64,000 nucleotides of DNA, taken from an uncultured Pelagibacteraceae bacterium (GTDB taxonomy: Bacteria; Pseudomonadota; Alphaproteobacteria; Pelagibacterales; Pelagibacteraceae). This document shows positions 5,669-7,967 of this stretch, piece by piece. Position 1 is the first letter of the stretch, and the number at the start of each line of letters is the position of its first letter. The notes below the pieces were generated by a model. It had not been told where the DNA came from. It was given only the letters and a program-made list of their open reading frames with translations, and did no database searches. The stretch is from NCBI GenBank assembly GCA_902628275.1, contig CACOMI010000003.1, positions 62,001 through 126,000 on the forward strand, written 5' to 3'. Made by a program: the position numbers and the translations under genes.

Positions 5669-5693
5669 AGGGGCGTTCTGTTGCCAGGTGCCC
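5669..5693. repeat. Left 25-bp direct repeat (displaced ssrA 3' end, att-like)
   Basis: These 25 bases are identical to 7667-7691, the 3' end of the permuted tmRNA gene. Identity stops at 5694, where the native gene continues with C but this copy has T, breaking the last pair of the terminal hairpin. A partial copy of an RNA 3' end at the far side of a small gene cluster is the signature left by a site-specific integrase. Which base the crossover used is not visible. Confidence 0.8.
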
Positions 5694-5751: not shown

Positions 5752-5791
5752 AACTGCGGTTAGATTGCGGTCAAATTCCATACTGCGGTCA
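5752..5791 (+). repeat. Three 11-bp repeats (TGCGGT core) at left island end
   Basis: Units aactgcggtta (5752-5762), gattgcggtca (5763-5773) and tactgcggtca (5781-5791). The first two abut with an 11-bp period and the third follows after 7 bp. They lie between the left att-like repeat and the first island gene. The spacing near one helical turn and the position fit recombinase arm-type sites or operator sites upstream of the GTG at 5815. Confidence 0.6.
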
Positions 5792-5814
5792 CAATTTATT
5801 TATATAAATTCATT

Positions 5815-6360
5815 GTGTCACTAAGATATTCAAATCTAATTTCAAGCGCACTTCACACAACTTATACACTTCCTCAAAAATGGGTTAATGATATTAAACA
5901 TGTAGAATTCAATGAAATTCTCTCATCATCAATTGGGCCACTAGCTTTAGTATTTGGTTGGAAAAATAAACATAAAGAGGAATTCTCAGAAATTGCATCT
6001 GGAGTTCTAGCATCAAGTTTTATACATGGAGACCCAATTGGCAGTATAAGCTCGATAGTAGTTTTGGCTTATAAATATTCAAAGACAAAAAATAAAGCAG
6101 AGTTTAATAATCTTAAATGGGGTTTTTTTAAAGGAACTCTAAGTGTTGGTGCATTTGCATTAACTACTAAGTTTGTTTCCTCTTCCTTATTTGGTTTTAT
6201 AGTTGCTCTATGTGTTGCGGGAATTATTAGAAAATCATTGGGATACTTAAAACTGTTGCAGTACATTAAATATCTTAAGCAATTCAAACCAAAGTTTAAA
6301 AAGTATATGACTAGACGAGAATTTATGACCTTAAATTTTATGACTCTTAAAAATGCTTGA
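5815..6360 (+). CDS. Island hypothetical protein with C-terminal hydrophobic segments
   Basis: First gene of the island, 181 residues from a GTG start; not recognised. The N-terminal half is mixed (a WVNDIKHVEF stretch, then IGPLALVFGW). Two or three hydrophobic segments follow in the second half (GTLSVGAFALTTKFV, SLFGFIVALCVAGII), and the tail is basic (KFKKYMTRREF). This suggests a small inner-membrane protein. It overlaps the 22-codon frame at 6353 by 8 nt, so it appears to head a tightly coupled cluster. The upstream 11-bp repeats could hold its control region. No function can be assigned. Confidence 0.6.
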   Translation: MSLRYSNLISSALHTTYTLPQKWVNDIKHVEFNEILSSSIGPLALVFGWKNKHKEEFSEIASGVLASSFIHGDPIGSISSIVVLAYKYSKTKNKAEFNNLKWGFFKGTLSVGAFALTTKFVSSSLFGFIVALCVAGIIRKSLGYLKLLQYIKYLKQFKPKFKKYMTRREFMTLNFMTLKNA

Positions 6361-6421
6361 AACTATAATATTTATTGAACTTGTAGCTTTAGGTCTAGGG
6401 CTATATTTTTCATATCAATGA
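6353..6421 (+). CDS. 22-aa membrane peptide, coupled to both neighbours
   Basis: A short frame, ATG at 6353 and TGA at 6419-6421, encodes a single hydrophobic helix (MLETIIFIELVALGLGLYF followed by SYQ). It overlaps the end of the preceding gene by 8 nt and the start of the next by 4 nt (ATGA). That exact nesting is hard to explain if the frame is not translated, because it is the usual architecture of coupled genes in this genome. The hydrophobic composition fits a one-pass membrane micropeptide. Function is unknown and translation is inferred. Confidence 0.5.
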   Translation: MLETIIFIELVALGLGLYFSYQ

Positions 6422-6951
6422 TTTTTGGTTTATTTAAAAAAAAGAAAAAAGAAAATACAGATAAAGATATTTCTGAAATTTTTGGGAAGATAAATAAATT
6501 ATTTAATACAGAGAATTCAAAATTTGTTTTAGATCTTTATAGTCTTGTATTTTTCCAATTAAAAACATTAGTTTTTACCCTTTTAGCTCCAGTAGATTTA
6601 AATAATAATGACAAATTACACAAATTATATAATCATAAATTTTCATTAGGATATATTTATGGATTGATTATTGCTTTAATTCAAAGCAATGATTTTATGA
6701 AAAAAAAAGAGGAACAATTGCATCAATTATTATTTGTTGAAATGACGAAAAGCCTTTTTGGCTTTTCTCAAGATGTTTCAGAAAATTATTTTAAAATGAG
6801 CAGGACGGTTTTTGCAGAAGATAAGATATTTTTGAAGGGTATTAGTGCAGGAGCTAATGAATTTATAAACTTTCAAAAAGGAAGATTTAAAGGAAAAATT
6901 GGTATATATTTTGACCAAGGTATTAAAGAGTTTGTGAAAGATTTAAATTAA
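6418..6951 (+). CDS. Island hypothetical protein
   Basis: Encodes 177 residues; not recognised. It starts with a very basic segment (FGLFKKKKKE near residue 3), then a hydrophobic stretch around residues 43-60 (SLVFFQLKTLVFTLLAP). The rest is mostly helical and polar, with GYIYGLIIALI around residue 78 and GISAGANEFINFQKGRFKG near the C-terminus. It may associate with the membrane. The ATG overlaps the stop of the 22-codon frame. The TAA at 6949-6951 is followed immediately by the next ATG, so the gene sits inside a co-transcribed unit. Confidence 0.65.
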   Translation: MIFGLFKKKKKENTDKDISEIFGKINKLFNTENSKFVLDLYSLVFFQLKTLVFTLLAPVDLNNNDKLHKLYNHKFSLGYIYGLIIALIQSNDFMKKKEEQLHQLLFVEMTKSLFGFSQDVSENYFKMSRTVFAEDKIFLKGISAGANEFINFQKGRFKGKIGIYFDQGIKEFVKDLN

Positions 6952-7146
6952 ATGGATATTTGGCAAATAATACTTGCTTTAGTCATAGTTGGTTTATCTA
7001 TTATTATGCCAATTTATTATTCATTAAAGAAGAAAAAATTAGCACAACAATTAAAAGAGGGAAGACAAGTTTCTGAGAGAGAAAAAATTAGAGTTTATAT
7101 AGATCAAATCAATCAACAGTCTAGAGATAGAAATAGAAAATTATAA
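6952..7146 (+). CDS. Small single-pass membrane protein (64 aa)
   Basis: Starts on the base after the preceding stop. Residues 4-24 form one hydrophobic helix (WQIILALVIVGLSIIMPIYY). The remainder is strongly charged and probably helical (KKKKLAQQLKEGR, REKIRVYIDQINQQ), typical of a small bitopic protein with a cytoplasmic tail. No family recognised. Zero spacing to the upstream gene and 3 nt to the downstream gene place it in the island operon. Confidence 0.65.
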   Translation: MDIWQIILALVIVGLSIIMPIYYSLKKKKLAQQLKEGRQVSEREKIRVYIDQINQQSRDRNRKL

Positions 7147-7149
7147 ATA

Positions 7150-7578
7150 ATGCACCATTCACTAAAAAAAATAAAAAAAGAAAGGTTTGCAGATCTAATT
7201 CAGAATATAATTAAAAAACAAACGAAAGAGGAAATTTTTCAATCTGTTACTTCAGAGATGAAAATTATTAAGTCAAAAAAATTTAAAAATCCTGACTTAA
7301 TATTAGCTTTGAATGATCAAGTTTCTGAGTTTGATTTTATGCCAGTATTGGGAGGTGAACACAAAGGAGAGATATCAATAAAAGTTGTATTGGTTGAAGG
7401 GAAGTATAAAGCATTGAAGTATTATATTGAGAAAAAATTATTTAAAAAATCTACTAAAATTGATACCAAAACCATGGACTCAATGTTTTTTTTGCATACA
7501 TATCATTACGCTATTATGGCGCATGATGATCGAAGACTAAGAAAAGTTTTGGGTATAAAAAAAGGTTTGTTTGGATAA
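7150..7578 (+). CDS. Island hypothetical protein (142 aa)
   Basis: Last island gene; not recognised. It is soluble-looking, with a basic helical N-terminus (KKIKKERFADLIQNIIKK), a central beta-like section (FMPVLGGEHKGEISIKVVL) and a C-terminus with several histidines (FFLHTYHYAIMAHDDRRLRK). Nothing in it resembles the R...HxxR...Y motif of a tyrosine recombinase. It begins 3 nt after the previous stop and ends 10 bp before the right-end 11-bp repeats, so those repeats are outside coding sequence. Confidence 0.65.
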   Translation: MHHSLKKIKKERFADLIQNIIKKQTKEEIFQSVTSEMKIIKSKKFKNPDLILALNDQVSEFDFMPVLGGEHKGEISIKVVLVEGKYKALKYYIEKKLFKKSTKIDTKTMDSMFFLHTYHYAIMAHDDRRLRKVLGIKKGLFG

Positions 7579-7588
7579 ATCAAATTTG

Positions 7589-7610
7589 AACTGCGCCTCA
7601 ACTGCGCCCG
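7589..7610 (+). repeat. Tandem 11-bp repeat (AACTGCGCC) at right island end
   Basis: Units aactgcgcctc (7589-7599) and aactgcgcccg (7600-7610) are directly tandem. They share the AACTGCG core and the 11-bp period with the repeats at 5752-5791 at the other end of the island. Both arrays lie inside the att-like repeats, the arrangement expected of recombinase arm sites. Confidence 0.6.
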
Positions 7611-7666
7611 AGTATTTTTTTTCTTTCTTTAATTGTTGATACTGCAAACTAAATTAACAAATGAGA

Positions 7667-7691
7667 AGGGGCGTTCTGTTGCCAGGTGCCC
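7667..7691. repeat. Right 25-bp direct repeat (intact ssrA 3' end)
   Basis: Identical to 5669-5693. Here it forms the 3'-terminal hairpin of the tmRNA coding segment on the minus strand, with 5-bp GGGGC/GCCCC arms at 7668-7672 and 7688-7692. This is therefore the functional copy that keeps ssrA intact after insertion. Confidence 0.8.
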
Positions 7692-7925
7692 CAGACCCCG
7701 TTTGCTTAATTAACTTAGTTAATTAGGCAGCAAGTGCGTAACTTTCGTTAGCAATTATAAATTAGCCCTTTACGGTGGAACAATTCCGAACGAAAGAATA
7801 GCTTTTAGTCACCCGTCGAATCTAGTTCACCCCCATAAGTTGTAATGGTGGAGGTGGTGGGTACTGCCCCCACGTCCGCAATGGTTATTACGAAATTCGT
7901 TTATCGTCATAGTTGGAAATCCAAC
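7668..7925 (-). ncRNA. ssrA: Circularly permuted (two-piece type) tmRNA
   Basis: tmRNA rescues stalled ribosomes by acting as tRNA-Ala and then as a short mRNA for a degradation tag. On the minus strand the order is permuted. The acceptor segment (about 7925-7846) comes first: a 5-bp T-stem with GGCAGUA loop (7873-7857), 3' acceptor strand CACCUCC, discriminator A and CCA (7848-7846). An 11-nt spacer (7845-7835) follows. Then comes the 5' acceptor strand GGGGGUG (7834-7828) with GAUUCGACGGG of the D-arm side, the tag frame (7752-7723) and the terminal hairpin (7692-7668). The 7-bp acceptor stem pairs fully and carries G-U at the third pair, the alanine identity element. The 5' limit is estimated from the GUUGG/CCAAC hairpin at 7912-7925. 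Confidence 0.92.
7723..7752 (-). other. tmRNA proteolysis tag reading frame (ANESYALAA)
   Basis: Nine sense codons and TAA on the minus strand encode ANESYALAA. With the alanine carried by tmRNA itself the appended tag would be AANESYALAA. The ALAA end is the kind of degron recognised by ClpXP in other bacteria. The preceding AUUUAUAAUU is the A/U-rich stretch expected upstream of a resume codon. Confidence 0.9.
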
Positions 7926-7931
7926 ATTATT

Positions 7932-7959
7932 AATATAAAAGTAATTAGAACAGATTCAA
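7932..7959 (-). promoter_or_regulatory. Likely sigma-70 promoter of ssrA
   Basis: On the minus strand TTGAAT (7959-7954) and TATATT (7937-7932) are separated by 16 nt, which puts the start near 7925. That is the first base of the GUUGG hairpin that opens the tmRNA acceptor segment. The match between predicted start and RNA boundary supports both calls. Confidence 0.6.
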
Positions 7960-7967
7960 CAACAATC

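Follow-up and report, generated by a model that had tools for sequence, protein, structure and literature searches.

Few cell lineages in the sea are as abundant as SAR11 bacteria. In one survey, as far as its accessible text goes, no genomic islands were detected in Pelagibacter ubique HTCC1062 (PMC3478194). In Dehalococcoides, integrase-less islands in ssrA have been proposed to be cis-mobilizable, and the available part of that report gives 15 without an integration module (PMC3146451). Pseudomonas tmRNA islands are, according to the accessible portion of the study, carried by a jumbo phage, and a helper phage was shown for one element (PMC12595487). Helper-dependent elements in general, including CALIN cassette arrays without an integrase, are covered in the available text of another paper (PMC11389934). 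The literature search, which covered titles and abstract openings among the matches listed and few subscription journals, returned no description of arm-site words or ssrA elements in SAR11.

The window (the whole stretch of DNA analysed, 64,000 nucleotides) comes from a Pelagibacteraceae genome (G000; 1,140,557 bases, 84% complete) and contains a small island between two exact 25-bp repeats. Their sequence is that of the hairpin at the 3' terminus of ssrA, the permuted tmRNA gene (RF01849 match; predicted folding -13 kcal/mol), and the 2-kb island therefore sits in ssrA. The target gene, a permuted alphaproteobacterial tmRNA gene (tag ANESYALAA; RF01849 222 bits; also called by ARAGORN), lies on the minus strand at 7664-7963 and includes the right repeat (7667-7691), with its hairpin on the same strand. 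The left repeat (5669-5693) is a displaced copy of the ssrA 3' end, 7 bases from the stop of a pyruvate phosphate dikinase gene (Pfam PPDK_N and PEP-utilizers). From repeat start to repeat start the island measures 1,998 bp. In two insertion-free relatives (L031, L153) apparently the same upstream gene runs directly into the hairpin and ssrA; this arrangement is the empty site. The island is best read as an integrase-less mobile element in the ssrA hairpin, in which the 25-bp repeats would be att cores and arrays of short words inside them putative arm-type sites of a helper integrase acting in trans (probability roughly 0.83).

All four ORFs of the island are on the plus strand: ORF1 (5815-6360, 181 aa), ORF2 (6418-6951, 177 aa), ORF3 (6952-7146, 64 aa) and ORF4 (7150-7578, 142 aa). 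None has a credible match in Pfam, PHROG, NCBIfam or PADLOC, with defence families matching only weakly, and the island therefore contains no integrase. The integrase-family profile likewise found no arm-binding tyrosine integrase in it, and no phage-satellite integration, replication or packaging genes were recognised. With attL and attR present and integration and transfer genes absent, the island has the composition by which cis-mobilizable elements are defined. It also has the marks of a tyrosine-integrase element, namely a direct-repeat core in the 3' end of an RNA gene and the same short word inside both ends. DNA relatives of ORF1 in other genomes are 64-75% identical, and several of these have no hairpin core in the stretch examined. 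ORF3 likely encodes a single membrane helix. Its relatives are found at L216:5597-5785 (G604), close to an integrase, and in a further ssrA segment (L212); from reading the ORFs, the G604 relative is also close to methyltransferase-like genes. No relatives of ORF2 and ORF4 were found among viral contigs by a method that detects close relatives only.

The left array (5752-5773, plus strand) consists of two words with an 11-bp period, AACTGCGGTTA at 5752-5762 and ATTGCGGTCA at 5764-5773, and a third word, ACTGCGGTCA, stands 18 bp further along at 5782-5791. The TGCGGT(T/C)A units within these words start at 5755, 5766 and 5784, with spacings of 11 and 18. The right array (7589-7608, plus strand) has AACTGCGCC at 7589-7597 and again at 7600-7608, also with an 11-bp period. 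Both lie outside the listed island ORFs (first start 5815, last end 7578) and about 60-100 bp inside the 25-bp repeats, as in the preliminary description, which had placed them in non-coding DNA inside the repeats. The arrays it described are confirmed. One detail has to be amended: the middle left unit reads ATTGCG instead of ACTGCG, the core said to be shared by both ends.

In the window the short motif ACTGCG occurs about as often as chance predicts (5 copies against 4.26 expected), although four of the five copies are in the arrays. The tandem form YTGCGSNNNNAYTGCGS occurs twice in the window and in none of 100 shuffles. Across the whole assembly it was again found twice, once per island end, and its backward control not at all; the pattern was composed after the arrays had been seen, and the control is accordingly the count elsewhere and not the presence at the island. 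A motif scattered over the genome had been named beforehand as the outcome that would speak against arm-type sites, and the tandem form is not scattered. The strict pattern of the core followed by 50-80 bases and ACTGCGGT matches only the genome of the window among 397 genomes. The word of the window is therefore rare at left ends, and the general rule is the pairing of words between ends, not any particular word.

The same island was found at a second site. In G630, another Pelagibacteraceae genome from a collection in which each genome represents another species, it is present at 99.4% identity over 2,036 bp with both repeats, and there it occupies a hairpin that is not part of ssrA. The match sets in exactly with the left repeat, at its first base, and is lost within a few bases past the right one, with no similarity outside. 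The neighbours in G630 are a SelR/MsrB gene on the left and a gene for 86 aa without a Pfam family on the right. When 5.7 and 19 kb of window backbone were compared with G630, only short matches were found, and these regions may therefore be absent from the G630 assembly. One neighbouring match of 69% lies between SelR/MsrB-type genes, which may be paralogs. Since the borders are the same at two sites at 99.4% identity, the integrase-less form changed place without an integrase of its own, and the mobile origin proposed at the outset is supported.

Such non-ssrA hairpins are not confined to G630. Among 33 single-core loci, 12 lack the tmRNA tag used as the criterion; one of these, L155, reads as a tmRNA variant, and in 11 the hairpin was judged to be outside ssrA. 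Where such loci were read, the hairpin comes directly after the stop codons of RNase H genes (one of them checked against Pfam) or of two kinds of small gene, always in a fixed direction (L047, L050, L053, L156, L158, L169; L057, L170, L206; L037, L051, L056, L214). Tandem words precede it in L047, L053, L170, L206 and L214. The hairpin thus seems to be a shared attachment site. In L172:979-1076 (SAG AG-892-L05) a right-end array ACTGCG...AACTGCG was observed beside another gene, and the core there follows ssrA only as far as GGTGC; this is a further non-ssrA site for the word of the window.

The two copies also bear on the possibility that the island is a dead remnant, which once had its own integrase, lost the gene and became fixed, leaving the words as fossils. 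The island has no integrase, a single tyrosine recombinase of some 300-325 aa is present in 24 of the 30 genomes whose cores are repeated, and homopolymer indels between the two copies shift the frame of ORF4 in G630, which may be biology or a sequencing error. All three would suit a remnant. However, it is the integrase-less form itself that stands at two sites with the same borders, and both copies still show recognisable words at either end, the right array of G630 differing by a single substitution. A remnant is therefore considered unlikely, and the trans-mobilised element is preferred.

The arrangement of core and words is not peculiar to the window. An 18-base core is present in 292 of the 397 genomes of the family, many of which have two to five copies on one strand, and in the places listed the repeated cores are often within a few kb of each other. 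In many of the 42 core-to-core segments read, words stand in tandem equally far inside the left and the right end, the word differing by element (for example CCCGTACA, GCCGACT, GGACGAGTC, TGACGCCA, TTCCGAA and TGCGTC in different elements). The pairing of words was then quantified at 65 loci, mostly chosen for close core pairs and including the window, which yielded 47 segments of less than 8 kb, 30 of them ending at ssrA; the 15.3-kb segment of L055 (G095) was left out. A 6-base word with at least three G/C common to both ends was sought in the zone 45-110 bp inside the repeats. Such a word was found in 26 of the 30 ssrA-terminal segments versus 31% of mismatched pairs (0 of 10,000 permutations), elements of related genomes sharing words and so not being independent. 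Further inside, at 130-195 bp, a control zone gave a shared word in 4 of 30 segments, as expected by chance, and the zone 0-45 bp gave none.

The pairing is not universal. Weak cases among the 26 are L058 and L067, with one word each, and L151, with two. Four ssrA-terminal segments (L059, L060, L061, L063) share no word, and among core-to-core segments that do not end at ssrA only 5 of 17 do; both results count against the preferred reading. Words were also shared as reverse complements in 12 of 30 segments versus 17% of mismatched pairs, and some words therefore form dyads as well.

The spacing of the words is just as regular. At right ends the repeat lag of 11 has 64 counts and no other lag of 6-24 exceeds 4. 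At left ends lag 11 has 59 counts, accompanied by 28 at lag 12 and 30 at lag 23, mostly from three-word arrays. The distance between the repeat and the start of an exact tandem word is 59-75 bp at left ends and 62-77 bp at right ends. Such words are present in 19 of 30 left ends, 23 of 30 right ends and both ends of 15 of 30; in control zones the corresponding numbers are 0-1 of 30 on the left and 3 of 30 on the right. Matched words at a fixed distance with mainly an 11-bp lag support the arm-type recombinase sites proposed in the preliminary description.

Ends are also exchanged between elements. In L171 (AH-287-G17), located at ssrA, the right words AACTGCGCCTCAACTGCGCC are the same as in the window and the cargo is different. 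In five other elements the core-proximal right end of the window (about 30 bp) is kept and the words are different. Ends, words and cargo thus mix as modules.

Segments of other sizes were observed as well. Two-hairpin segments of 350-630 bp (L037, L058:3511, L061:3335, L062:8, L070) apparently contain one small gene each and have no common end word. Larger core-to-core spacings that might hold bigger elements are those of L055 (15.3 kb) and G051:C1:399926-434351 (34 kb). In the L055 locus the profile detected no integrase of the arm-binding family.

The words might instead be operators, through which a regulator of the island or of a helper controls cargo promoters, and which would not be recombination sites. 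Left arrays do stand just before the first cargo ORF, and at the left ends of L038, L042, L043 and L074 a third, inverted copy of the word was read near the first cargo gene, forming a dyad, so arm words may double as operators. The sharing of reverse-complement words described above points the same way. A promoter scan of the island gave 11 hits versus 11.1 expected and argues neither way. As an alternative to recombination sites, however, operators fit poorly: the right array of the window comes after the last gene, between gene and core, where this role leaves it unexplained, the distance of the words is tied to the core, and none of the four ORFs has a DNA-binding family (Pfam, PHROG, NCBIfam). 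Operators in place of arm sites are thus quite improbable, while an operator function as an added role of the words may exist. Least probable of all is homologous recombination, in which the island would be swapped between cells together with neighbouring sequence and without involvement of the repeats: the hairpin is repeated in SAR11 genomes and could act as a short homology, but 25 bp is short for homologous exchange, the identity between G000 and G630 starts at the left core and stops within a few bases past the right one, and the pairing and spacing of words are left unexplained.

If the island is a trans-mobilised element, its helper should be an integrase of the arm-binding kind. A profile built from 12 members of this family, which recovers 34 of 34 positive-control loci, was relied on in this search since a motif-based test misses real integrases. 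Only one of the 65 loci of the pairing test contains such an integrase, in the G526 element of L151. A tyrosine recombinase domain is present in 27 of the 30 genomes with repeated cores, and 26 of 29 places have frames of 300-325 aa, probably all of one type (two were read). By coordinates none of the 29 places is inside any core-to-core segment read. In the recombinase of G000, whose neighbour gene has no Pfam family, the SAM-like domain begins at residue 18, too early for an arm-binding domain to fit in front of it. Integrases whose N terminus is longer occur in 16 of the 397 genomes of the family and in 18 of 399 genomes of the genus.

Within the stretches examined, two integrase genes of the arm-binding type are adjacent to ssrA, those of G224 and G526. 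The profile of their family aligns with lambda integrase (1z1g) from residue 69 onward, and about 53 positions at the N terminus stay outside the match. This is the place that the arm-binding domain has in lambda integrase; Pfam names no arm-binding domain there. In G224, TGACGCCA-TGACGCCA lies on the reverse strand between the core and the ATG taken as the integrase start. A longer frame from a TTG would overlap the words, and the contig ends soon after the integrase gene. In another genome the element L041, in which the profile finds no such integrase, has the same TGACGCCA words at both ends. The right ends of L041 and G224 are 89% identical over 108 bp, comprising core and words, and then fall to about 30%. 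The integrase-less L041 therefore carries the end of an integrase element. That an integrase element in ssrA and an integrase-less one have a word and an end in common supports the reading as arm-type sites.

A tandem word with a lag of 11 or 12 bp is also found at the integrase gene starts of the arm-binding family, in 20 of 24 rows or 18 of 22 distinct loci (the survey covered 29 loci, of which 5 had no ORF call, and two loci were counted twice in the rows). Lags of 8-10, 13 and 14 total 5. A tRNA gene is present in the stretch at 10 of the 22 distinct loci and ssrA at 2. The recurrence of this arrangement at the gene starts of one integrase family further favours the reading of the words as candidate arm-type sites. 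Other observations count against it. At the gene start of the ssrA integrase of G526, as at three other loci, there is no exact tandem word, the G526 element has only two overlapping 6-mers common to its ends, and no integrase with the word of the window island was found in G000, which is 84% complete, or elsewhere in the material searched. As for accretion in cis, tandem arrays exist and the G526 integrase element adjoins another segment; at neither of its two sites is the window island accompanied by a core beyond its own pair.

The G526 element itself (element B; L151:12657-18830, 6.2 kb) combines an integrase adjacent to ssrA with small ORFs and a protein of 733 aa that resembles a primase (PHROG 1156, 8e-25). 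From its gene content it looks like a phage satellite in SAR11.

A phage or viral helper was sought in IMG/VR and in phage records. The core occurs in 12 IMG/VR stretches, with an ARAGORN tmRNA gene in 11; the twelfth, the GC-rich contig L108, is a chance-like match. The integrase-family profile found no integrase in any of the 12, and the right array of the window has no exact match in IMG/VR. The G224 word pair is present in 71 stretches, none of which contains a core fragment of at least 12 bases. An integrase was found in one of the 71, L275, where the word pair stands at the 3' end of the integrase; this is probably chance. The 61 bases around the ssrA 3' end had no match in phage records at E up to 1. 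Among the matches listed, all phage relatives of the integrase are below 60% identity, the best full-length ones at 32-33%, and HTVC019P aligns to residues 118-324 only. A phage or viral helper was rejected as a candidate, no viral contig or phage record in these sources combining the core of the window with an integrase, and the link to pelagiphages suggested earlier was not found in them. The permuted tmRNA genes called by ARAGORN in viral contigs (L104-L107, L109-L115) have the tags ADENLALAA, AKTINADENLALAA or ANDDMVFALAA.

In the proposed mechanism crossover would take place at the 25-bp repeats, the core sites, and the word arrays with their 11-bp period, which lie 60-100 bp further in, would serve as arm-type sites. 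Another element would supply a helper tyrosine integrase of the arm-binding kind. By analogy with lambda, its N terminus would sit on the arm words and its catalytic part on the cores, bridging both ends. The island would be excised as a circle, with an attP of right arm, core and left arm, and could reinsert at a copy of the hairpin. With each element family having its own arm word, the word may decide which helper moves it. Binding of the arm words, the circle, action in trans and a word that codes for the helper all belong to the inferred part of this scheme.

The integrase-less island and its relatives with the same layout and different words suggest a stock of very small cassettes that rely on borrowed enzymes for their movement. 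In its widest form this would be a trans-mobilised cassette system of SAR11, with many cargo units of 0.4-3 kb (hundreds, by extrapolation), one hairpin in ssrA and in copies after rnhA and other genes, end words that name the allowed helper, and helpers that are rare in cell genomes. The chances for and against such a system appear about equal. Arm words provide a computable key, with which elements can be delimited, integrase-less cargo linked to helper integrases and the choice of DNA by arm-binding domains studied.

In the literature compared, as far as the sources were accessible, nothing corresponds to the SAR11 combination of a single core and numerous matched arm words on units of 0.4-3.4 kb that lack an integrase. 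The nearest systems each share a part of the arrangement. The Dehalococcoides islands are also in ssrA, with direct repeats of its 3' end and in tandem arrays, but their integration modules have serine recombinases and the available text does not mention arm-type words, whereas SAR11 has tyrosine integrases and units of 0.4-3.4 kb with element-specific words at both ends (PMC3146451). The Pseudomonas tmRNA islands resemble the window island in their insertion just after tmRNA, direct repeats, a tyrosine integrase system and lack of transfer genes; unlike it, the three described in the accessible portion encode their own integrase (PMC12595487). Attachment sites of the lambda type, as presented in the excerpts available, likewise combine a core with repeated arm sites and an integrase gene beside one arm, whereas the SAR11 sites are on integrase-less elements and have many words for one core (PMC2951348, PMC8138268). 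Tycheposons and PICMI satellites, in the available parts of their descriptions, are also marine and use fixed integration sites, and in G526 element B an integrase is accompanied by a primase-like protein; but tycheposons are 4-200 kb long with a tyrosine recombinase and PICMIs encode excision and replication proteins, and the window island has 2 kb and neither (PMC10872708, PMC10803314). CALIN arrays, according to the text at hand, are cargo-unit arrays that depend on an integrase from elsewhere, whereas the SAR11 units are bounded by the ssrA hairpin and have internal arm words (PMC11389934).

If the cassette system is real, its units would stand to arm-binding integrases as MITEs do to transposases and as cassettes do to integrons, and the code from word to integrase would be an open one.
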